64,000 nucleotides of DNA from Favolaschia claudopus (Eukaryota > Basidiomycota > Agaricomycetes > Agaricales > Mycenaceae). The position numbers were made by a program, and so were the translations under genes. Every line of letters begins with the position of its first letter. Positions within the stretch are counted from its first letter, which is position 1. The notes beneath the pieces are model-generated. The model was given only the letters and a program-made list of their open reading frames with translations. It was not told where the DNA came from and made no database searches. The stretch covers positions 741,863 to 805,862 of the forward strand of contig JAWWNJ010000115.1 in the NCBI GenBank assembly GCA_037176885.1, given 5' to 3'. Below, in pieces: positions 49,331 to 64,000 of the stretch.

Positions 49331-50085
49331 AGTGTGCGTTGCCCGAAGAAGCAAGGTAAGTGAGTTCGTTATTGAATTCAAACCATTGCTGACGGTTTGA
49401 ATGACTTCGTGAGATGCACCTTTCGGCTGACTAGGTAAGTTGTAATACCACTATTATCAACGACTGTTGACCGTTCCAATAGTTTCGTTCGACCTATTCC
49501 TTCAACGAGCGGGTTTCAATTCAAGTACCACTTCAAACCCCGGACCTGGATTGGCCTCGGCGCCATGTCAGGGATCCCCGGTGAGCCGACTCGCTTCTCT
49601 CTTCATTTATTGACGGAGTAAGTCAGGATTGACTTCTGTCAGGGATTTCTGGTTGATCACAATGCGCTTGGGCTCGTCGTATCAAGGTGAGGACTATCTT
49701 TTGCTTTGATTACAAAGTTTGACGGCCGCATTCGTTCCTTTGACATAGAGTTCTGGTGTTGGATTGAAGTTTAAGCTTGTATTCGACTCGGTACAAGGTG
49801 CGTATCGATAACCTGCTCTCCATTTAACTGAATCTTACCTTGATTTACTAGGCTTTCTTCGTATGCTCGATACCGCTGGTATAACTCAAGGGTACGTCTA
49901 ACCCTTTCTACTTCTCTATACAACCCAATTACTGGCTTCAGGTTTCAACATCCAAGAGGCCGAAGCCATGCTTTCCCGCCGTGAACGCGCAAAACACATC
50001 AACCGCCCCACGCCGCTCTCCCGCCGCTTCCTTCGCGTGCCGGAAACGACGCGACTCGCGCGGGGTTAATCTGGGTACGTCTGTA
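49331..50085 (+). other. short donor/acceptor-like units, no gene
   Basis: Repeated GTAAGTTG-, GTGAGCCG-, GTGAGGAC- and GTGCGTATC-type sequences follow each other at 60-120 bp. No frame can be followed through them, and no motif is recognised. This resembles the sequence between R copies. Confidence 0.4.
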
Positions 50086-50089
50086 CGGC

Positions 50090-50335
50090 GGTGAGTTATC
50101 TTCTTCGTTCGTTCGCGTCAAAATCAAAAGAACTCACCTTGATTTTGATTTCTAGCGCATTTCTGTGCGAGTCGGGGCGCGTGGCGCCGAAGTGACGATG
50201 CCGGCGCGAAGCGTTCGTCTGTCTACTTAGGTGAGTAAATCTTTCGTTCGTCTCGCCGTCAAAACAACAAGAGAAACTCACTTTGAATTTTGATTTCTAG
50301 CCCATTTTCGAGTCAGTCGACGCGCGCAGCGCCGA
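50090..50335 (+). repeat. tandem doublet, about 135 bp each, with intron-like half
   Basis: Two adjacent copies share GGTGAGT, then TTCGTTCG, then GATTTTGATTTCTAGC (or ATTTTGATTTCTAGC), then a GCGCCGAAGTGACG block. In each copy the donor-like GGTGAGT is mirrored about 35 nt later by ACTCACC or ACTCAC, so the would-be 5' splice site can pair into a hairpin. Confidence 0.6.
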
Positions 50336-50639
50336 AGTGACGTTGTCGGCATTGGTTTGGTGCCGAGGAGGCCAGCGGCCGCGGTGTGGGATAGCGGGGT
50401 CGGGTTTGGAGGGGAATAGAACGGCAGGAGAACGAGGGTTTGGCGGCAAATACGATGTCGGCGTCGGGCCGACGGTCCAGAGGAGCGGGCGGCGAATGCG
50501 GCTAGAGGTCGAGGCGGGGAGGGGACGGGCTAGAAACGGTGGGGGTGGTGTTAGTAAGGTGCGGAAAGGGGAGGGGATATGTTCACGCACCTTTATTCCG
50601 ATGTAAGTACTTTTTGTGTATGTTAATTCGATTTTTAGG

Positions 50640-51960
50640 TGTTTCACTTGAGCTCAAACCTTCCCAGAGACGTCTCGGGGCTCCATACAAAGTGTCACCG
50701 TCTAATTGGTTGACTATGCTTTGGGAACGACGCACTCACTGGGTGTCATCAACATTGGCATCAACACAAAATCGGTGCTTTCTAATTCAATTTCTGCTCT
50801 TTTCTTGTGATCTCAGCGTTTCCCGCCAACAAATTTCCCTTGTTTAGATTCCTATTCAGTTGAATTCCTCGGCGCTGGCCATAGAACTTTGCAATCGCGG
50901 GCCACCATCAATATTATCATCAAGATACATGTTGTGGGTTTCCCATTCAATTTCGATCCATTCCCCTTCAACTCACGTCCGTCCAACGACCACTTGGGGC
51001 TCTCTACTCACCGCCGCTTTCAAATTCTTGTACAATACTCCGGGTACGCCGCACTCACTGAGTGCCCTCAACATTGTTTCCAGCGCAAAATCAGAGGTTT
51101 CAATTTCGATTTCTTGTACTTTCCATTGATCTTTACGTTCCCCAGTCGCGTTTTGACCACCCTCAACTTCCTGCGATGCTCAATCCTCCAGTGCTGCCTC
51201 CGAAACTTCGCAATCGTTGGACATCCTCAATAATATCATCAAAATGGAAATGGTGAGTTTCCCATTGAATCTCTATCCGGTTTCCTCCAACTCAGGCGTT
51301 CCCATTGACGGTTCAGCATTCCCCACCCACTCATGCTGTCGGATAACTCATTTATTCCCCCGGAATGGCGCGCATTCTGACTGCCCCCAATATCAGCATC
51401 ATCACAAATGTTTAGGTCTCTCATTCACTTTGTGGTATTTTCTCTCGATCTCAATGCAGCCCAGCGACGGTTTCTACTCTTCTATCATTCCCCATTGTCG
51501 ATCTCTTTGGTGCTGGCCTGGCAACGTCACGCGCGCCGGACACCATCAATATTATCATTTCAACGCAAATGTAAGGTTTCAAAGCAACTCTCACTCTTGT
51601 AGCTCAAACCAAAATGTCCCCAACCTTGCTGTTGGGATACTTGTCTCCCCTCGGCTTTAAATACGTCGGCGTTGCCCCGAGATTGTCATATCAAGCTATT
51701 GCTCACAATATTGGCATCAAAACAAATATAAGTAAATTTCTCGCTCGAATTCCACTCGTTTTTCTCAAACCAAAACCTTCCCGGCCTCGGATGGGAACCT
51801 TCTACGTGATTTCGTCCCGCCGTTTACCGGCGCTGCACTCGTAACGTCGCGGATAATCGTTTCCTTGAATATTAGTATCAAATCAGCAAATGTGAGTTGC
51901 TCATTCAATTTCTACTCGTTCCCTCTAGCCTCAATCGTTCCTAACCTCGCTGCAAAGCCT
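50640..51960 (+). repeat. about 159-bp tandem satellite, about eight diverged units
   Basis: A motif of the type CATCAAYATTRKCATCAA followed by a short A-rich run recurs at about 50747, 50904, 51065, 51223, 51383, 51542, 51701 and 51863, a spacing of 157-162 bp. Each unit also holds a TTTCCCATTSAATYTC-like stretch and a CCTCAACTCAGG- or TTCCC-like stretch; several have GTGAGT and CAG at intron-like spacing. Units are diverged, and no frame runs through the array. Confidence 0.7.
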
Positions 51961-52304
51961 CTTACTATGCTTATAAGCATTAGAGTGGCACTATAAGTAG
52001 AAATTCGTGTGTGAGGGTCAAGACTGTCAGAGCGGTAAATCGGTGAAAGCAAATATTATAATTGACAACCTAATTTATTATAAGAGGAGGCAAAAGCTGA
52101 TAATTGCATCAGGGGGCATGCCTATAAGAACTATGAAAGACCTTCACACTATCGTCAAGGAAATATAGGGGCTTTCAGAGTGAATGGAAATAAGCCGATG
52201 AGCTGTAGTATGGGGCTTTCATAACTTGCCAGTGACTGCGGACGCCGAGTGTGGACTGTACGGTGCCAGGTGAGTGAGTACAGCTTGGGTGAGACAGCGA
52301 TCAA

Positions 52305-52490
52305 CGCAGGAGCGGAGCGTGGGAAAATAAAATCAGTGAAAACCAATAGGGCTCCAATTGCCCCAAAAGTGACTTTGGACATCCCGCAAATGGCTCGATG
52401 CGGGAGCGGAGCGTGGGAAAATAAAAATCGGGGGAAACCAAGAGGGCTCCAAATCGCCCAAAAGTGACTTTGGACTTCCCGCAAATGGCC
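52305..52490 (+). repeat. 91-bp tandem duplicate
   Basis: GGAGCGGAGCGTGGGAAAAT begins at about 52309 and again at about 52400. The following GGGCTCCAA, CCAAAAGTGACTTTGGAC and CCCGCAAATGGC blocks repeat with it. Divergence is low, so the duplication is fairly recent. Confidence 0.75.
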
Positions 52491-52549
52491 CGCCAGGCCG
52501 CGAACGGAAACCTGCCTTTGACCGAAAAGGCTATGAGCTGAACTGGAAG

Positions 52550-52955
52550 TCTGATATCTCTGTCAATTATAGAGTCAGCGCCTTGGGTATGGGGTCTGAT
52601 AGAAGGCATCAAATGGAGCTGTAAGGCTTGGGCAGCGGCACTCGAGCTGAGCTAGATGGATTTGGCGTGCGGGGCAATGTATTGTATATTTTCCAATAGC
52701 TTGCCTTGGAAGACCCTACCTTTGCATTCCTGGGATACGCCTGGGCGTATCTGCTTTCAAAAGCATGAAAAGAACTTCCTTGGTAGTCTGGCGAGGTTTA
52801 GGGACATAGAGACTGTATAGACACTGTGTAAACAATACAAACACCAAACACCAATACGGGATCCAGCAAGTCAACACCAAAGCACGGACTTTAAGGTTTG
52901 CGACAACTCCACAACAAGGATGTTAAGGTTAGCGGTCCCACTCCCCTAGCTATCT
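52550..52955 (+). repeat. left copy of the terminal subtelomeric repeat family
   Basis: Blocks CGCCTTGGGTATGGG, a GTTTAGGGACATAGAG block, CACCAAAGCACGG and GTTAAGGTTAGCGGTCCCAC match the repeats beyond TLH2 (for example 60950-61165 and 62040-62215). TLH2 is therefore enclosed by the same repeat family on both sides. Confidence 0.6.
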
Positions 52956-52961
52956 TCCCCG

Positions 52962-52981
52962 GGAATTACGATCGTAATTCC
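52962..52981. repeat. perfect 20-bp palindrome
   Basis: GGAATTACGATCGTAATTCC reads identically on both strands. It follows directly after a CCCCGG block at the end of the left subtelomeric repeat. Confidence 0.85.
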
Positions 52982-53239
52982 GTGAAAAGGGGACTGAAAA
53001 CGGTGGAATTACGTGCGCAACCCCTAGCGTGGGAAGGAATTCAGTGCGCATCAATTTTGATGGTGAAAAGCTCACCCAAATTACCAGAATTCAGTGCGAC
53101 ATCAGGAATTCAGTACGCAGTCTCTCAGCCCTCCGACAGCAGGAAAGTGAAAAGGAACACTCTACAAAAATCTTAACACCAACTCGAAAGTGCAAAAGGA
53201 TTCTTATAGACGGCCCCCAGCCCTTATAATAAATGCGAT

Positions 53240-54250
53240 AAAATATTCAAATATGAAGCCTCTCTCAAACGAATAAACCAGGAAAATTATAAGCTCCTGA
53301 GGCTGCTTATCAGAAATTCACCAATGAAAACTTATAAGAACCTGCGAGTGGCTATAAGAAACACTTTCCCACAGTTGTCAAAAAAATAGTGAGGACACAA
53401 AAGCTTCCAAATGGCCTAGAAAACACTTCTGTCTCTTCAGAAATGCCCCAATTCCTCTTGTTCAAGAGCTATAAGGGAAAGACTTGAGGGGGTCAGTGCA
53501 CTTCCAAATGAGGTAATTGATAGCTGTCAGAATCGATTCCCATGACTCCATGACAGTGGGAATGACAGTAGGAATGGTGACATAATCCTTACAGGTATAT
53601 AAAGCCCCCACCCACATAATATTGGATTTCTTTTAACCCCCCACTATCCATTTTGCGACTCAACCTGCTTATCTAAGCATCCCACTTGCTTACCTAAGCT
53701 TCCCTCTGCCATCCAACACTGCCTCATCTCATAATCAATACTTATAAAGGTCTGTCCTGCCTTATATTAGATTCTACAGTCTTTTACTCAACCACACCAG
53801 CAAACTAGGCCCTTGATTCATTCTTTTAAGGGACCATCTCAGCTTATAAGAAACACTCAACCCTCTTTTGGTCAGTATCATTCTTAATATAAGGACCCTT
53901 CCTAGCTTATAAGATTTCTGCAGTCCTCAAATTTGCCTAGCATCCACAGTTCTTTTAAGGAATCCTCCCACCTTATAAGAGACACTCAACCCTCTTTCCT
54001 GGTCAGTATGATTATTCTTTTAAGGTCCTTTCATGGCTTATAAGTTTTTTCTCCAACCAGATTGAATTCCTTTCAAGTTGCTTACTTCCTTCCCCTCCAA
54101 AAATTGGTGTTGAAACTGTTGCTAGAGTTTGATTATAAGCCATACACTACTCTAATAATTGATTCTACAACACTGTGGGTTGCCTGATACTTATTGCTGC
54201 CCTGAGCTCACTGTAATGAATACAGATGCCTCAACCAGTGAGCTCAAACA
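53240..54250 (+). repeat. CTTATAAG-rich upstream region of TLH2 with tandem units
   Basis: CTTATAAG or TTATAAG occurs a dozen or more times. Between about 53840 and 54060, two tandem units share GCTTATAAGAAACACTCAAC (or CCTTATAAGAGACACTCAAC), a CTCTTT...GGTCAGTAT stretch and a TTAAGG/TATAAGG stretch at about 130 bp spacing. The same octamer is a constant feature of the TLH2 introns. A promoter role is possible but not shown. Confidence 0.55.
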
Positions 54251-54284
54251 TTGTTTCTCCAACTATCTCCTTACCTAGACTCAG

Positions 54285-57200
54285 GTGCTATCAAAGAGGA
54301 TTCAACTCAATCATCGTGGCGACCTTATAACTACCCCTCTGCTTCATGCTGTTAATGTTGCAGTCAATACTGAACTCATGCTCTACATTTGTCTCCCCTG
54401 CAAGACCGCACACACCCGTTCAACTGATATGAGGGTTGGAATCCTGGGCCACCTCGTGAAGAAACACGGAGGGTGTGACACTGGTTGCAGAGATGAAATT
54501 ATGAACGAGACTCATGGATACAGCATTAACTTGACATTCAATCTGACACCCACAGTGGAATCACGACCTGCATATAGCGGTCTCAAAATCGTCGAGAACC
54601 AAGCAGGATGCACCCACTGCCCTTATTCAGCTGTTCAGAAGATGGTCACCAAACACCAACGGGACGAGCACAATGATCACCGAGGAATCACAATTCAAAA
54701 CCTTCATACCCAAATGCTGAATCCTGGCATGACAACTGGGAAAGCATGCATCAGAGTCCTTCCTTTTCCAACTGAAGCTATTATGCGCTCCCCCTTACCC
54801 ACTCAAAAGTTGTCGAGCACAGCTCCAACTCCAGCTCCATCCCACTCATTCGATCTCAATGCGGACACGGAGCAGACTGTTGCTGTTGAGGAGCCTGGGA
54901 CAAAACTCTACGCTGACTACCTTGCGTTCAAACCTTCGGACTTTCAGCCAGAAGGAGAGACAGACCACCGTCTCATCAGCCGTTGGCTCAAACGCACACA
55001 CTGGATGCGCCTGATCGAATCCCATCTCGATCATCTGGATGAGCTTTGCAATTTCGCAAAGTTTCCTGGGGAAGAGGAATTTCCGGAGTTGAAGACAATT
55101 GTGGTGTCCTATTTCACTGCTGCTACTCGGTTGGTTGACCTGACACATGGGGCTGTACTGGAACGTCTAAATACTGCAGACCCAGACAAAGAGTAAGCTG
55201 CTTTCTTATAGTCAGTCCTTTGGCCTTATAATAATTATGCAGTGGAATTACCAACAAACCTTTACATGCACACAAACCCGGTGATGCAACCTTCAATAAA
55301 TATGTCCAGATTGTGATTCGACTTCTCGGAACATTCATTCGCGAATCAAAGCATTACACCCTTCCCTTCACCCCTTCCTGTGAAAGCTCTCGAGCTGCGT
55401 TTGTCCACGCTCTCAACAACGGCTCGGACAGTGACCGAGACGAATCACTTCACGATTTTCTGCTCTCTGTGTGGGCTACAACTTGGCAAGCAACTCATGA
55501 GGAGCGAGACTGTGATCCCACCCTCTGCTTCCTTGGGTTGTATGCGTTACAGCCGACTGGTGAATTTCTGGGTCCAAAACAGATGACGAGTCCCATAGCC
55601 CACTTGTCATGGGCAATTCGGTTGGTTATTTTGCGCCAGATACATCAGCTGTGTGCCAGCGGTGTCTGCAAGGATCATCTGGACGCCTTCAACCAAGTCG
55701 CAGAATACATCACGGAGCACAACATCAACACCTTCAGCTCCCTCCGCTCCCTCCAGCACTATGCTACCGCCATCACGATGAGCACAATGCCGCTTCCAAG
55801 CATTGTGTTCCTCGATCGTGAGGGCTGGACAGACATGTATTTCAAAGGCCAACACTTCAGCTTGGAGAAGCTTCGAGAAATTCTGGCTGCTCTGGAGGCG
55901 GAGATTATGAGACTTTGGACTGAGAAGGTTATGCTCGGGCTCAATCTCCGTGTTGATTACACGAATCTTGTCGACAACCTTCAAAACCAGAAGCCCGGAT
56001 ACTCGTTTATTCAGGAACCGACAAACCCGTTCGTGCAGCACAAAAATACGTTCCTGCAGACATTGCTAGCGGATCCTGTCAAGGCGAGAGAGTTTGTCTT
56101 CAAGGCTGCTGGTGTTGAGGACGAGCAGATCGACATGACTCGATGCCGTGGATACATGACAGATGTCGGCGAGTTCGAGGGGTTACTCATGCTCTATGTT
56201 GAGCTCACTCCTGGTGCCACGATCCGGGGCACTGAACTGACTGCTATGATGATGGAGAACACTCCGTGGTGCTTCCGAAATGCTCTGGCGATCGCAAAGT
56301 TTCTTGGTCTCTTCCGACAATACGACAAAACCACCAATCTCACTGGCAAGAATCGTCTCGTTCCACACGCAGCAAGTGCCTTTGTTAGTGACCTCATCAT
56401 TCAACTACATACTTTTATCCGGCCCTTTGTTCAGGTGAGATATTTCATTCTTATAACACTCTATTGCTCCTTATATTAATGCAACATCCTATTTTTCAGG
56501 TGCGATTTAATTTGTCTCTTATAAGCTCATTCAACTCACTATAATAATTTCGAAACATTCTGTTTCTTAGGTGCAAATGCATTTTTCTCTTATAAGCTCA
56601 TCCCACTGACTATAATAAACGCAGTTCCTTGCCAGCCTTGTCTTCCCTGGCAATGCCTCTGTTGTGAACCAATATGGCAGCATGCTGTTCATGAATTTCG
56701 GACGATTATTCAACACAGACAAGCTCAGCTCGCTCATGGGGGAATGGTCCGCTCCAATCCTTGGATGGAGCATGACTATCTTGTGTTATCGCCAAATCAA
56801 CACGGCCTTGCGGCGGAAACTATGTGGTGATCTTGACGACGATCATGAAGTAGAGCCTGACGTCAAGCAGGTTGTTGGGGCACTGCAAGCAGGGCATAGC
56901 TGGAGGACTGATCACCAGCATTATGGGTTGTCTCACAACGCAATGCTCGGAGTGAGTGAGGAGATTATACAGCAATTTCTGGATGCCAGTGTTCGTTTCC
57001 AAAAAGCGATTGGTGTTGTTCCCGGTGGCCTTCCTCTCCCATATTCCAGCGCTACCATGGATCACTTTGCTGGCTTGAACCTTGTGTCAAAGGTAGAGAA
57101 GGTGGCGATTACACAGAACATTGATCCTCGGATGGAATCCCTCATTTCGAAACTGATCGAAACGAACCAGGCCCTGCTCAAAGGTCAGCAATTGATGACA

Positions 57201-59596
57201 GAAAAAATCGCTGCCTTGGAGCAGAAACTCGAGTCTAGGGAGCCAGTTATTGCACCCCCTCCACCAGCCGTGCTCCAACTCACACATCTGATCAATCCAT
57301 CTTCACCCTTGCGTTCTGAGCCTCTCGATCTTCCAGTCCCCCCTCCTTCCCATCCACCAGCAGCACAACGTCTTTCAGAACTACCCCAGCACAATGTCAT
57401 CGATGTTGATGTTGACCAAGATGGCGATCTAACCATGGTCAATGCAGACGATGACTCGGACATCGAAATCCTTCCCAGCCCTCCTTCCAAACCTGCTCCG
57501 CAACCACTCCCCTCACACAATGTCGATGTCCTCACTCACCTTCAAAACATGTATGGCGATAAAGCTGTATGGAAGGATGAGCTGCAATACATTGCAGTCC
57601 AAGAATTGCTTGCATTGAAGGGAGACGTCTTCATCACACTCAAAACTGGTGCGGGGAAATCAGCAGTTATTGTATTGCCAACTCTTGTGGAGAACGGGTA
57701 CACCGTGCTACATCTTCCTCTCATCTCCCTCATGATGGACTGGGAACGACGTCTCAAGGAACTTGGTGTTTCATACGAGAAATGGAGTGGGGGATCTCAG
57801 CACTCTCTCACAGGTGGCGATAACCTCATCCTCGTTTCCTGTGACATGGCTCGAACCCCGAAATTCAAACGGGCTATAGCAGAGCTGGGGGTCACCAAGC
57901 CAGTTATCCGCTATGCATACGATGAATCTCATCTCTTTGTCACTGATGCAGACTTCAGAGCAGAAGCATTTGGGAACCCATACGAGATGCGGGAACGCCC
58001 CCTTCAAATCGCTTTGGTTTCGGCGACTATATCTGCTGGTGCTGAAACTATGTTGACAAAGGCATTCAAGCTCAAGGTGAGTTATTTCATTCTTATAACA
58101 CTGGATTGCTCCTTATATTAACGCAACATCCTATTTCTCAGGTGCGAATTCATTCTTCTCTTATAAGCTCATTCAACTCACTATATTAAACACGCACCAT
58201 CCTATTTCTCAGGTGCGAATTCATTCTTCTCTTATAAGCCCACACCACTCACTATATTAAACACTCAAGAACCCCACCAGAATTGCTGGTCTCAGTGATC
58301 GACCCGAACTCCATTTTCGCATTGAAGACATGTCGTATGGCTTTGATGATCAGCTCTCCAAACTCCGAAAGCTACTGCAGTACTACAAGAATGTGACTAC
58401 ATCCAACGGCAACCACTACTGGCAGCCAAACAGCCGCTATGTTGTCTATGTTGGTTCAATGGCAGAGGGTATCCGACTGGCGGATGAGCTTGGGTTGGAG
58501 TTTTATCACGGGCACTCCACAGCCCATCCCATCAGCGAAGAGGAGCGTGCAGCTATCTACCAAAGATGGAAGGATGGTGAGCACGACGGACTAATTGCTA
58601 CCACAGCATTTGGACCAGGGATTGACTACCCTTCGATCCGGCTCACTTTTCACTTTGGAAAACCATTCCATCTCATCGGATTTGTACAAGAGGCCGGCCG
58701 CGCAGGTCGAGACGAACATTCGGCATACAACTACATTCTTCCCCTTCAAGGAATTTGCCGTCCGAAGGAACAAGAATCTGATCCTTGTGGCAAACTAGCC
58801 ATGTGGGATTTAATCTACAGTGCAGAACGAACTTGTCATACCCTGCAGATAACAAGATTCCTTGACAAGGTGGGACGAGATTGCAAAAGCATTGGACGTT
58901 TACCATGCCGTCCTTGCAAACACGGCAAGAATATACAATTTATTATAACACTATATCACTCACTATAAGAAATCTGTAGCTGATGTCAAGCGGGGCAAAC
59001 TAGCACCAACTCCAATGCCTTCAAATCCCTCCCTCCCATATACACCACTCTCTTTCGCTGGCGTGAAGCGCAAACTTGATGATGCATTTGGCGATGCTGC
59101 AAATGCTGCAGTACTCGAGACTGGCAAACGAATCGCCGCTCATCCACGGGCAGTTGAAATGTTCCGCGCCTTCTTTGCTCGGGTTGGGACAGCATGCGGA
59201 TATTGCTGGGCCATTGGGATTAAGAACCCAACCTCACATTTTTACAGCGAGTGCAAACAGATGGGCCCGACAACAGAATTTTACAAGTTCAAACGTGCTG
59301 TTCGTTACCCGGACAGCGGTGGTATTTGCTTTCGATGCCACATTGCGTCCTATGGCCAAGACGCATTACATCCACCTATGGGCAAAGACAAACACTGCCC
59401 ATATCCCAATCTCGCATTGCAGCTTGGCTATGCTATTTTCAACAATCCAACAATTCGAAAAAAGGCTCTGGCACACTTTGGTCCCAGCCCCGCTGAGTGG
59501 TCTACCCCCACAGATTTTGCAGCATGGTTTCAGGGGAAACATCCTATGTACAAGTTCAGATCTATGGCTGTGATTGAATTCTTTGCTAATATGTAG
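54285..59596 (+). CDS. telomere-proximal RecQ-type helicase TLH2, about 1607 codons
   Basis: Exons: 54285-55192, 55243-56434, 56625-58076, 58270-58924, 58980-59596 (4824 nt, phases matching). The true start is unclear: the frame opens at GTG 54285 after an acceptor-like CAG, the first in-frame ATG is 54378, and a 5' exon may be missing from this call. The N-terminus has finger-like YICLPCKT...HLVKKHGG and CTHCPYS...HQRDEH. A central domain shares landmarks such as GYSFI with TLH1. Helicase motifs: LKTGAGKS (intact Walker A, about 1040), YDESH (about 1133), LVSATIS, YVVYVGSMAEG, TTAFGPGIDYPS, QEAGRAGRD (about 1324). The Cys-rich C-terminus (CGYCWAIGI, CFRCHIASYG, HPPMGKDKHCPY) is better kept than in TLH1. 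Such genes lie next to telomeres in basidiomycetes. Two introns are composite and one is GC-AG; these are listed separately. Confidence 0.85.
56435..56624 (+). other. composite intron A of TLH2: three abutting GT-AG units
   Basis: Units 56435-56499 (65 nt), 56500-56570 (71 nt) and 56571-56624 (54 nt) each begin GTGAG or GTGC and end CAG or TAG. There are no bases between AG and the next GT. Each has a TTATAA core. Removing the whole 190 nt joins exons in frame (VQ then FLASLVF). The order and unit lengths match composite intron B. Confidence 0.8.
58077..58269 (+). other. composite intron B of TLH2: three abutting GT-AG units
   Basis: Units 58077-58141 (65 nt), 58142-58212 (71 nt) and 58213-58269 (57 nt). 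Unit 1 differs from unit 1 of composite intron A at only about five positions. Units 2 and 3 share GTGCGAATTCATTCTTCTCT with each other. Removal joins LKLK to NPTRIAGLSDR, a normal RecQ sequence. Confidence 0.8.
58925..58979 (+). other. GC-AG intron of TLH2, 55 nt
   Basis: No GT donor lies where the frame requires one. The donor G/GCAAGAAT and acceptor CTGTAG restore CRPCKHADVKRGK, which parallels the CxxC and following linker of TLH1. The intron also carries TTATAACACTATATCACTC, resembling the composite-intron units. Confidence 0.65.
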
Positions 59597-60619
59597 ATAA
59601 ATTGATGTAATATTGCCTCACCTCCAGAGTAATTAACCAAATACACTCACTTCCTTTGCTCTTCAACTTATATCCTATGAAGGGAATCAAATAAGAGCCC
59701 ACTAATCATAAAACTATAATGCTGAACCACTAGATTCCTTTTTGGGACAGTAGAAGTTGCATCAACTTCCTATTATGGGTTCATACTCTGTCATTGATTT
59801 TGCCAAATATGTTGCCCTTCCCCCTTGCAAGATACCATCAATAGTGACTCATATAGTGTATATTCACGTCTCAATGCATTATCCAAGTCCTATACCTGGT
59901 AAATTTCCATTGACTTGAATTCAACCTCAATCCAATCAAATCAAAATGAAGCATTCACATATCCCTCTGCCCCCCATGGTTCTTGCTAAATGAGCTCAGA
60001 TACATTGGCTAGGGCTGTACCTAGCTTCCTGAAACGTTTATACTACTCCCTACCTGGTGGTTATGCTTCCCAGGCCCTTGAACTACAGCTTTGACCAGGT
60101 CAAAGCAAATTAATTCAAATCTCCATTTCCCTGCCTTTAATATAGCTAATATGTGTTCAGTTTGCCAGTAGGTATGATCCCAAAGTGTTCCTGTTTGTTC
60201 TAAGCTGGAAATGTTGTGTATGGATGGGTGAGGAAACACAGTATGTGTGCTTGGACCAGACAAACCAAATGAAGAGAATCATGATCTGTTGCTGTTCAAA
60301 CTGTTGGATATGAAGCATATATGTTTATTGGGTATCTAGGTGAGTCCTCATTTGCTGTCTAAGCGCTACAACTGGTAGCTTTTATTCAGTTTGAATGTGG
60401 ATCACTAGCTTGGACCAACCAAAGAAATTTATCAAATTCAGAATCAATGGGGATTTCATGTACTCAGATGCAGGTGACCTGTAGTCATGTCAATGTCTAG
60501 GTACTTCTCTGTATGATATTCAAAGCTCTGAGTGTGAATTTGATGCAATCTGATACTAAATCCATAGCTTGGACCGGCTGAAGCAAGGGAAGGCTCATAG
60601 TTACTGTAATGAACGGTGT
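59597..60619. other. AT-rich spacer downstream of TLH2
   Basis: This is probably the TLH2 3' end followed by non-coding sequence. Three passages share CTAGCTTGGACC or similar phrases (about 60253, 60411, 60568) at about 157 bp spacing, with GATATGAAGC / CAATCTGATA-like neighbours: a faint, very decayed tandem repeat. No gene is visible. Confidence 0.4.
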
Positions 60620-62989
60620 GAACAAAACCATTTCTTATAGTCGACGGCAAAGCCTTATAATAATGAATGCCACTCAAAGCCAACCATATAAGAATTGCGA
60701 CTCACTGCCAAAAAAAATTATAAGCCAGAGCCAAGGCTTATAAGAAATGCAATTAAAATAGCTGACTCTGAGGTCTTGTAAGAAATCGGTAAAAATGGTC
60801 AAGACCAAAAGGGTGCCAAATAGCCTGGGAATCAGCCTAGTGTCACCGCAAACACCCGAACAGGTGTCGTTGACGTGCTATATTGACTTGGATGGAAACC
60901 GTACGGCTGGGACCGAAACCTGACTACGACAATCAATTGACCACCGATTGCCTTGGGTATAGGCCCGAATGGAAGCGTTTGACGAGGACTATAAGATTAT
61001 GTCATCAGTGATTGAGTCTCAGCTCACCTGACATTTACGACTGGGTCAAACACTGCGTTCGAAGCCATACGGAATGCACAAGGCAATACCAAAGCACGGG
61101 TGTTAAGGTTTGGGACAACTCCCCAGCACAGACGTTAAGGTTAGTGGTCCCACTCCCCCGATGGAATTCACTAGAATATAAAATTTTTTCGGCAGCTTCG
61201 GAAAGGAAACCGCGGACCAAGCAATCCAGCAAGGCAATGCACGGGTTAACAACGGAATCCAGCAAGACATTGGCGAACTAGCCGCTCACAGCTGCCCGCT
61301 AGAACGTAAAGGAAGTTGCGGGTGACCAAGTCAATGGAAGCACGTACTTGAGTGTACAAGCCAATGGTCAACAATACATCACCAAGTACGATGGCAGGCA
61401 ATCAATCAACCCAGTCTGCCTAGTGAGTATCATCCCTTGCAACAACAGCAACTGTCCCTGCTGTTTCTATCTACTTCTCCCGGAGGCGTGTCAAATGGAC
61501 CCACGACATCAAGAAGTAAAATAGCAGGCAATCAACCCAGTCTGACCCTGTCGAACACATTCGGAGTGCTCTACCCACCAGGCCACCCTGAGTCAGAGCA
61601 GCAACTGCTTGCCTTGCAGTTTTGATTTCTACAAAACGACCCCGCACCAAGCCAACTTGTATCGCCGCAACTACATCCGTCTGAGCAGCTATAAGAACCA
61701 GAGATGTCTCAGAGCGGGCACAACCACTGGCCTTCAAAGGCTGCGTTTGAGTCTCCAATAGCGAACAGACTCTGCTGACCGCAAATCGTAGCCAAGTCAA
61801 ACCCAACGTACCGGACTCAATTAGCCACTCATTGCCTTGGGTATAGGCTCGAAACGAAGCATTTGCCCAGCATTATAAGGCTATATGCGTGGCGGGAAAA
61901 TCCGAGGGCAATGAGGCACTCAAGTAGGGTACGGACTTGAATATTGCCTTTGAACGCAAGCCAGTCGTCTTGAGTGAATGCATCTGGGTATTCTCAATGA
62001 CTTGCCCTCAAAGCTAAGGATTACAAGGCCTCCATATCCTGGCAAGGGTTAGGGACATTGGCTTCAGACCGCAGAGACACCGCGTGAAGGAAACAAGCAC
62101 CGAACACCCCAATTGAAGCTATACGGAATACAGCAAAGCAACCCCGCATCAGAGACGTTAAGGTTGGCGACAACCCAGGAGCACAGACGTTAAGGTTAGC
62201 GACCCAACTCCCCCGACGGAATCCACCAGAATATAAATTTTTTTCGGCAGCTTCGGAAAGGAAACCGCGGACCAAGCAATCCAGCAAGGCAACGCACGGG
62301 TTAGATGACGCAATCCAGCAAGACATTGGCGAACTAGCCACTCTTATCCCTCCGCTACTTCGTAAAGGAAACCCAGGTCACCGGAGTCGGTGGAAGCACG
62401 TATTCAAGTCTGTGGGCTGTCATATAAGGCAACAGCTGCCAACCGAGAGTGAAACTGGCCAGGCAGAGTTACGACCACGTTATCACAACCATTCCCACGG
62501 TCACTGTGGCCAAACATGCTCGTGATATGCTGGCATGGGCTCAAGCAGTGATTTCAACTACAAACGAATGCCCGCGGAAGGCAGGTACTCACACCGTACC
62601 AGCTGGATACTAGTGGAGGTGAAACTTGCCTAAAAGGGCAACATAGAGGTCACGGGTGGCGCTATGGACTTGATTTCTATCAGGATATGACTGGAGGGAC
62701 CTATTCCATGACCTGAGATGGGTGGCGGGAAAATTGTCAATGCCGCGGGCTTGGCGCGGAGCAATATACCAACTTGGTTATTTTCTTGATTGTAGTGCAA
62801 GACGTGGTGTGATTGCTTATCTGGACCAAGGGAATGTTCCCACAGACACACAAGCACATTGGCTTTCTTACAGTCAAAGGCGAAGTGTTATAAGGAGACA
62901 CTGTATTGGGCATATGAGTGTGCGAAAATATTCAACTCACTGACACGCGCAACGCAACACCGTTCAAGGAACCGCCATTGAATCACAAA
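60620..62989 (+). repeat. terminal subtelomeric unit, first copy (2370 bp)
   Basis: The sequence from 60620 recurs from 62990 at an offset of 2370 bp, so this is one full tandem unit. It begins GAACAAAACCATTTCTTATA. Internally, the section around 61060-61300 has a diverged second version at about 62120-62340 (CGGCAGCTTCGGAAAGGAAA; CATTGGCGAACTAGCC). Both contain the telomere-like phrase GTTAAGGTTAG. A 76-89-aa open frame appears in both full copies but starts at TTG and has no homologue I know, so it is not called as a gene. Confidence 0.85.
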
Positions 62990-63801
62990 GAACAAAACCA
63001 TTTCTTATAGTCGACGGCAAAGCCTTATAATAATGAATGCCACTCAAAGCCAACCATATAAGAATTGCGACTCACTGCCAAAAAAAATTATAAGCCAGAG
63101 CCAAGGCTTATAAGAAATGCAATTAAAATAGCTGACTCTGAGGTCTTGTAAGAAATCGGTAAAAATGGTCAAGACCAAAAGGGTGCCAAATAGCCTGGGA
63201 ATCAGCCTAGTGTCACCGCAAACACCCGAACAGGTGTCGTTGACGTGCTATATTGACTTGGATGGAAACCGTACGGCTGGGACCGAAACCTGACTACGAC
63301 AATCAATTGACCACCGATTGCCTTGGGTATAGGCCCGAATGGAAGCGTTTGACGAGGACTATAAGATTATGTCATCAGTGATTGAGTCTCAGCTCACCTG
63401 ACATTTACGACTGGGTCAAACACTGCGTTCGAAGCCATACGGAATGCACAAGGCAATACCAAAGCACGGGTGTTAAGGTTTGGGACAACTCCCCAGCACA
63501 GACGTTAAGGTTAGTGGTCCCACTCCCCCGATGGAATTCACTAGAATATAAAATTTTTTCGGCAGCTTCGGAAAGGAAACCGCGGACCAAGCAATCCAGC
63601 AAGGCAATGCACGGGTTAACAACGGAATCCAGCAAGACATTGGCGAACTAGCCGCTCACAGCTGCCCGCTAGAACGTAAAGGAAGTTGCGGGTGACCAAG
63701 TCAATGGAAGCACGTACTTGAGTGTACAAGCCAATGGTCAACAATACATCACCAAGTACGATGGCAGGCAATCAATCAACCCAGTCTGCCTAGTGAGTAT
63801 C
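62990..63801 (+). repeat. terminal subtelomeric unit, second copy truncated by the telomere
   Basis: These 812 bp match 60620-61431 with no difference that I could find by eye. The copy stops after TAGTGAGTATC: the first copy continues ATCCC, whereas this one passes straight into TTAGGG repeats. It is the last unique-type sequence of the chromosome. Confidence 0.9.
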
Positions 63802-63803
63802 TA

Positions 63804-64000
63804 GGTTAGGGTTAGGGTTAGGGTTAGGGTTAGGGTTAGGGTTAGGGTTAGGGTTAGGGTTAGGGTTAGAGGGTTAGGGTTAGGGTTAGGGTTAGGGTTA
63901 GGGTTAGGGTTAGGGTTAGGGTTAGGGTTAGGGTTAGGGTTAGGGTTAGGGTTAGGGTTAGGGTTAGGGTTAGGGTTAGGGTTAGGGTTAGGGTTAGGGT
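63804..64000 (+). repeat. telomere, about 33 TTAGGG repeats
   Basis: The G-rich strand runs toward the right end, as expected for a right-hand chromosome terminus. One variant unit, TTAGAGGG, lies near 63867; all others appear perfect. The array reaches the last base of the window. Confidence 0.98.

Follow-up and report, generated by a model that had tools for sequence, protein, structure and literature searches.

Two stacks of abutting intron-sized units in a telomere-linked helicase gene

How introns are born and multiply is a long-standing question, and most cases are ancient or single events. The question is raised anew by a telomere-linked helicase (TLH) gene of the fungus Favolaschia claudopus (Mycenaceae), which lies at positions 54279-59596 of the + strand of a 64,000-nucleotide (nt) stretch (C115:741863-805862; hereafter the window, whose numbering is used throughout) and was named TLH2 in a first-pass annotation of this DNA. 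Two introns of the gene, A and B, are each composed of three GT...AG units that follow one another directly. We propose, with moderate confidence, that they are stacks of abutting intron units that could be removed piece by piece, that A came first and changed its length by in-register duplication and loss, and that B was copied from A. The close paralogues of the gene provide a natural series for such a process, which includes copies with no intron, with three units, with four units, with a hybrid unit and with a stack at a second codon boundary.

Intron A consists of a 65-nt unit 1 (56435..56499; donor GTGAGA, acceptor TTTTTCAG), a 71-nt unit 2 (56500..56570; donor GTGCGA, acceptor TTTCTTAG) and a 54-nt unit 3 (56571..56624; donor GTGCAA, acceptor AAACGCAG), the last of which is devoid of the polypyrimidine tail present in units 1 and 2. 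Intron B is built in the same way from units of 65 nt (58077..58141), 71 nt (58142..58212) and 57 nt (58213..58269), all on the + strand and all GT...AG, the third ending in ACTCAAG. Both introns are in phase 0, i.e. between codons, and when they are taken out together with the plain introns 1 and 4 the gene reads as a single frame, free of stops for 1609 codons. The coordinates and the build claimed in the first-pass annotation (65 + 71 + 54 and 65 + 71 + 57 nt, with zero bases between AG and GT) were thus confirmed, and the roughly five differences that it had reported between the two first units correspond to 5/65 positions counted, with 13/71 differences between the second units and 11/54 between the third. 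The local alignment of A and B scored 242, and none of 500 shuffles that preserved dinucleotides exceeded a score of 34, the highest value reached. Tandem Repeats Finder reported the B array alone (58121-58268, period 71, 2.1 copies). The predicted RNA fold of intron A was no better than that of shuffled sequences (z -0.52), which does not support a conserved structure, and no Rfam family reached its gathering threshold in the region 50000-64000.

Unit number varies in register among the helicase copies

In the assembly searched (264.6 Mb, 460 contigs) we identified at least 13 A arrays that are complete, with 10 distinct sequences among them, and at least seven such B arrays (five distinct). 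Three units make up ten of the A arrays (C115, C153, C227, C452, C83, C81, C226 and three on C17) and four units the other three (C69, C256 and C189), and B has three units in 7/7 cases; the resulting lengths are 189, 190, 259 and 261 nt for A and 193 nt for B. Two more copies, L016 and L021, are interrupted within A by other DNA. The window copy stops 4.2 kb short of the TTAGGG telomere repeats that end the window (63804..64000, +) and is therefore telomere-adjacent; the remaining copies, placed by their distance to the contig end only, lie at most about 70 kb from that end and are directed toward it, the copy on the 20-kb contig C452 not being judgeable.

The number of units varies in register, as in an intronic tandem repeat, and the C226 array preserves a hybrid. 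Its unit 2 is identical to unit 2 of C256 at diagnostic columns 10, 15 and 27, and to unit 3 of C256 at columns 30, 45, 56 and 66, and this single switch in the middle of the unit points to the product of an in-register 71-nt deletion or of an unequal exchange. In C17, unit 2 follows unit 2 of C189 at 6/7 diagnostic columns, which suggests that here a whole unit is missing. Taken together, the three-unit and four-unit arrays and one hybrid of two neighbouring units support the earlier idea that the intron multiplied in tandem.

The junctions between units were the same in all cases. Each of the 43 internal junctions of the 20 arrays reads YAG|GT, and when the 43 units that end in an internal acceptor are aligned (23 distinct rows), no variation is seen at 26 of the 71 columns, among them the two bases on either side of the junction. 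The chance that four given columns are all invariant would be about 0.015 if invariance were random, which is modest evidence, the rows being related. The changes observed next to the junction are of a tolerated type (CAG/TAG and GTG/GTA).

Candidate internal splice sites and removal of the arrays

Stepwise removal of the units, with use of the internal splice sites, is predicted from the build of the arrays. According to the mechanism that we propose, unit 1 would be spliced out first and would rebuild the exon edge as CAG|GTGCG, which would act as donor for unit 2, and unit 3 would leave last, so that every removal would leave a fresh donor at the exon edge for the step that follows. A 5' to 3' order is expected because the donor of unit 1 is the one nearest to the usual GTGAG, the internal polypyrimidine tracts are strong and no acceptor is weaker than the last one. 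In this respect, the first donor is GTGAG in 20/20 arrays and the internal donors start with GTGCG, which should be a usable donor in basidiomycetes, in 35/43 cases; over the 15 nt before AG, pyrimidines account for 75% at the internal acceptors and for 48% at the terminal ones. The plain introns measure 46-55 nt in the seven copies spliced, and hence each unit has the size of a normal intron.

Whatever the order, the whole array must be removed, because the array lengths differ modulo 3 and because 164/164 combinations in which some units of the 20 arrays are retained, joined to 300 nt of the downstream exon of the window gene, meet a stop codon. With whole arrays removed, C226, C189, C17c and the window gene each give an open frame of about 1609 codons, and C69, C256 and C153 contain stops even then. 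The ratio of nonsynonymous to synonymous substitution rates (dN/dS) was 0.09-0.14 for exon 2 (55243..56434, an open frame; 10 pairs from five chosen copies of 15) and 0.10-0.21 for exon 3 (56625..58076; 10 pairs from five copies of equal length), and both exons are under purifying selection. Exon 4 (58270..58924) is too similar among copies to tell, three of 21 pairs from seven copies being without differences and the rest giving 0.14-1.02. Among annotated proteins, no gene model spanning A or B was found in 24 + 19 protein matches; the 19, which came from scoring the 7991 candidates with the most words in common, include no protein named Favolaschia, and P0001, the sole Favolaschia-named protein of the 24 matches (98% identity), splices intron 1 and departs from the gene before site A.

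A different reading of the same arrays, which we take seriously without favouring it, is that each amounts to a single ordinary intron, 189-261 nt long, which harbors a 71-nt minisatellite and is spliced in one step between the first GTGAG and the last AG, AG|GT being a chance tetramer in the repeat. Such a tetramer should not be rare somewhere in a 71-nt unit, the messenger RNA (mRNA) would be the same, and a change of length in register is typical of minisatellites. However, a chance tetramer does not sit easily with a YAG|GT that is kept at 43/43 junctions across two diverged clades, with internal acceptors whose polypyrimidine tracts are better than that of the last one, with a unit size equal to that of the plain introns of the family, or with an array that evolves more slowly than the four-fold sites that flank it. 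For the last point, we compared A arrays and exons between the two clades (I and II) in 25 pairs, which are not independent (five of six clade I copies by five of seven clade II copies, C153 being retained despite six stops in the first 200 codons of exon 3). The p-distance was 0.141 for intron A and 6.2% for unit 1, and the divergence at four-fold sites was 0.380 over the 300 nt that end exon 2 and 0.377 over the 300 nt that begin exon 3, with Fisher p values of 3.2e-7 and 3.2e-4 for intron A versus four-fold sites in two pairs. The likeliest reason for the low divergence of intron A would be constraint on splice signals and on the boxes described below.

Probable gain of the arrays and probable copying from A to B

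Seven divergent paralogues (two on C79, and one each on C147, C60, C457, C125 and C275), which are 38-41% identical over the stretch with site A and 23-54% identical over all stretches, are uninterrupted both at site A (RPLAQ|FFAS) and at site B (FELS|NPVH). They share the break at intron 1 and, by eye, an intron near position 4. The C452 and C83 copies, about 70% identical in their 3' half, are uninterrupted at B only; they do not polarise A, because they are mosaics that match the window copy at 96-97% identity in exon 2 and intron A. Overall, site B is uninterrupted in 9/16 readable gene copies and occupied in seven, the window copy among them, and A is absent from seven copies. Both arrays look gained, since gain appears to be the simpler reading for each of them, and this reading would be firmer for B than for A.

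As to the origin of B, its unit 1 differs at 3-8/65 positions from the first units and at 18-24/65 from the full inner units of five A arrays. The mean distance of B, out of 190 positions, was 10.0 to the A array of C226, 12.1 to that of C256, 16-19 to the other A arrays of clade II and 25.1-29.7 to the six A arrays of clade I. An unrooted tree of units 1, 2 and last, from which the third unit of four-unit arrays was left out, set the A arrays of clade I apart from B and the A arrays of clade II, with an ultrafast bootstrap of 100. The unit-by-unit match and the nearness to one A subfamily point to the direction A to B and to one copying of the whole stack; B is therefore likely to be a copy of an A stack. 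The claim that the intron had been copied to a second site is thus sustained by the unit-by-unit match and by the uninterrupted B site of the nine copies.

The edges of B suggest how the copy may have entered. The hexamer CTCAAG stands ahead of the intron (58071..58076, +) and again as its last six bases (58264..58269, +), where it contains the last acceptor, in 7/7 B copies; the paralogous empty sites are too diverged to define the target. The homology between A and B ends near the start of the CTCAAG repeat, which fits an insertion whose target repeat supplied the last acceptor. The likely course of events would then be that the A stack arose first, that its length altered through in-register tandem duplication and loss, and that a copy of it inserted at a new codon boundary to give B, a 6-nt target repeat providing the last acceptor.

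Several points weigh against this proposal or parts of it. The internal donors (GTGCG and GTACG) are unlike the first donor, and a single splicing step that joins the outermost donor and acceptor of an array yields an identical mRNA. The first 150 nt of exon 3 diverge less than the exon ends as a whole (0.209, about 17 four-fold sites), and the low divergence of the intron could come in part from local gene conversion. A is polarised by a single divergent clade, whose copies are nearly identical to each other, the position of B within clade II has weak support (bootstrap 59 and 66), and the direct repeat is of 6 nt at B but of only 3 nt at A, which shares just CAG with its upstream flank. Finally, some of the helicase copies are probably alleles, given that 86.8% of BUSCO genes are duplicated in the published genome of F. 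claudopus (265 Mb, PacBio), according to the available part of its description (PMC10905254).

A TATA box pair shared with subtelomeric DNA

All the units carry two TATA boxes, whose starts are 20 nt apart in 63/63 units, seven of them with a third TATA in between. The resulting 30-nt element is found by pattern at 56450..56479, 56518-56547 and 56589-56618 in units 1, 2 and 3 of A, at 58092-58121, 58160-58189 and 58231-58260 in those of B, and at 53203-53232, 60634..60663 and 63004-63033 in noncoding subtelomeric DNA of the window, always on the + strand. The two plain introns of the gene, 1 and 4, also contain one such box pair each (at 55205-55234 in intron 1), and by eye introns 1 and 4 of the divergent paralogues are devoid of it. 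Box 2 overlaps what is likely to be the branch site.

The box pair recurs in subtelomeric DNA. The strict pattern CTTATA-N(6-30)-CTTATAATAA matched the genome 520 times, versus 10 for the reversed control. Among 100 places listed, many of which are mutual repeats, 96 are exactly 30 nt long and 96 lie less than 80 kb from a contig end on the strand facing that end, the other four being internal (three on C27, one on C33). The form CTTATA-N14-CTTATAATAA has 14 inner bases that vary.

A shared functional motif is as likely as common descent to explain the box pair. The 14 bases between the boxes, compared by eye between intron 1 and a subtelomeric copy, are unlike beyond the box edges, and the sequence after box 2 of units B1, A1 and A2, compared with 13 distinct subtelomeric stretches, gave null fractions of 0.017, 0.117 and 0.357 for the best scores, uncorrected. 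Descent of the units from subtelomeric copies beyond the boxes was therefore not supported, the post-box-2 sequences not being significantly alike. The view that the subtelomeric elements are themselves introns of noncoding transcripts was discarded, since most have no donor-like site: among 23 flanked copies (L046-L062, few families), a GT within 22 nt upstream was present in three and a YAG within 30 nt downstream in 23.

The link between intron growth and a subtelomeric sequence motif allows a more speculative idea, which we hold as doubtful: the stacks might be self-removing arrays of a chromosome-end element, in which every copy would be enclosed by splice sites of its own, so that the gene would gain elements within its body with its protein unchanged, and their multiplication might be driven by selection for element number. 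If true, such selection would be a route of intron gain unrelated to transposon spread.

Other origins considered

An improbable source for the AG|GT junction is a tandem duplication that took in both intron A and the last bases of exon 2, by which the exon tail would become an internal acceptor. The end of exon 2 (CATCCGGCCGTTTGCTCAG in C226) does resemble the internal ends (CATCCTATTTCTCAG). However, when two exon-2 ends were compared with three internal ends, the similarity was matched by 3% to 23% of 600 CAG-ending 24-mers of the window, and this ranking, in which the resemblance is not significant, led us to reject the exon tail as the source.

Equally unlikely, in our opinion, is that slow or faulty introns are kept because stalled spliceosomes feed RNA interference (RNAi) that silences the telomeric helicase, as with the cryptic introns of fission yeast. 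The gene does lie at chromosome ends, any retained unit adds a stop, and heterochromatic repeats depend on their cryptic introns for the production of small interfering RNA in the portion of that work at hand (PMC11696164); against such silencing, four of the copies are still intact and purifying selection acts on exons 2 and 3.

The first-pass annotation had also seen here an introner-like element (ILE) in action and had suggested a genome-wide search for further copies of the units inside genes. We used intron A as BLAST query (25 matches), units 1 and 2 of B as query (45 matches) and a 28-mer pattern with at most three mismatches (24 matches; 0 for the reversed control), and all the matches fell within copies of the helicase gene, i.e. 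at two sites of one gene family and in no other gene. These counts are lower bounds, as very common words were skipped and diverged copies may escape; matches were assigned to helicase copies by their coordinates, and flanking exons were checked in the fetched loci. That A and B belong to an introner-like family spreading through genes is accordingly highly improbable, even though B is missing in paralogues and flanked by a direct repeat whose 6 nt fall in the 3-9 bp range given for introner target site duplications in the accessible part of one report (PMC9860276), and a burst of introners, which would leave near-identical copies in many unrelated genes, was rejected on the basis of these searches.

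Comparison with known complex introns

Recursive splicing in yeast is said to have been described by Lopez and Seraphin in 2000. The arrays of F. claudopus are, in our judgement, a variant of the known complex, recursively spliceable introns, and the four-unit versions, the empty paralogue sites, the 20-nt box pair, the probable constraint and the absence of matches outside the gene family in our searches go beyond the first-pass annotation. If their internal sites are used, they would constitute a natural multi-step system with zero-length exons in a gene of short introns, where stepwise splicing could be tested within a few hundred bases.

The closest likeness is to the stwintrons sensu lato with abutting donors of the Lipomyces reticulon gene, which in the available part of the report are likewise complex intervening sequences made of intron units, that of L. 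starkeyi being removed by consecutive splicing or in one reaction (PMC7138796). The Lipomyces intron comprises two nested units, whereas in F. claudopus the units are homologous, follow one another in sets of three or four, vary in copy number and have a second copy at another codon. The sister stwintrons of Hypoxylaceae share the copying of whole complexes to new positions; in the sections of those reports at hand they are nested [D1,2] units, occur in many genes and show no target site duplication (PMC8469720, PMC9024468). In contrast, the F. claudopus units abut, occupy two sites in one gene family and have a 6-nt repeat at B. They are not stwintrons sensu stricto, in which an internal intron interrupts a splice element of the external one, as the units abut in 43/43 cases.

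The Drosophila ratchet points present the same juxtaposed AG|GT that would regenerate a donor, and such juxtaposition of acceptor and donor occurs at 43/43 junctions of our arrays. According to the part of the source available, most ratchet points are found in long introns, and they require a cryptic exon downstream (PMC8605326), whereas a whole array in F. claudopus measures 189-261 nt and has an intron-sized unit after each donor. With introners and ILEs (PMC9860276, PMC4457414), the arrays share gain by intron copying and the short direct repeat at B, as far as the portions of these papers go, and they differ in that no copies were found in unrelated genes. In one fungus, duplications other than those of ILEs, including tandem ones within a gene, made up less than 1% of single intron gains, as stated in the accessible part of one of these studies (PMC4457414). 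The gene itself resembles telomere-linked RecQ helicase genes in its RecQ type, its site at chromosome ends, its multiple copies and its orientation facing the contig end where this can be judged. Among the papers listed on telomere-linked helicases, the titles and abstract openings mention no composite introns of this kind, and among those listed on introners, stwintrons, recursive splicing, zero-length exons and tandem introns, with few subscription journals included, they mention no array of three or four homologous abutting introns that varies in unit number.

Gene structure and flanking sequence of the window

The gene is a RecQ-type telomere-linked helicase, as indicated by a DEAD-box half in exon 3 (PF00270, E 2.9e-9), a helicase C-terminal domain in exon 4 (PF00271, E 3.1e-11) and, as best solved relative of a 346-amino-acid piece from exons 3-4, RecQ1 (chain 9i22_A, E 1.6e-20). 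Exon 1 (54279..55192, open part only) runs on in an open frame into exon 2 once intron 1 is removed, and exon 5 (58980..59596) is open to the stop codon. Intron 1 (55193..55242) is a plain GT...AG intron of 50 nt in phase 2, supported by the frame and by the protein alignment of the divergent paralogues, which also breaks there. Intron 4 (58925..58979), plain, of 55 nt and in phase 1, is GC-AG in the window copy and GT-AG in the paralogues L009, L011, L012, L015 and L020. All these features are on the + strand.

Several helicase copies (L016, L021, L010 and one at window position 52948) are cut by a like repeat that starts with CTAGCTA, followed by a GGGAATT-type palindrome, and the annotated protein P0001 continues from helicase exon 2 into DNA of this CTAGCTA type. 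A Helitron identity of this repeat was not upheld, as by eye different bases follow its CTAG end. In C17:2425000-2444900 (L019, L020), three helicase copies stand in tandem with a spacing of about 5.39 kb, and in the first two of them the match stops at about base 1360 of exon 3. The copies L011, L012, L009 and the window gene are mosaics that combine near-identical 5' parts with 3' halves of differing types, with or without intron B.

Upstream of the open part of exon 1, the region 53590-54280 is likely to be the leader of the helicase, after a TATA box at about 53596; it contains several CTTATAAG boxes and, at 53843 and 53972, the copies of a partial tandem repeat, further leader introns being possible. 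Downstream of the gene, beside the telomere, two identical 300-nt direct repeats (60620-60919 and 62990-63289) lie 2370 nt apart within a longer subtelomeric repeat.

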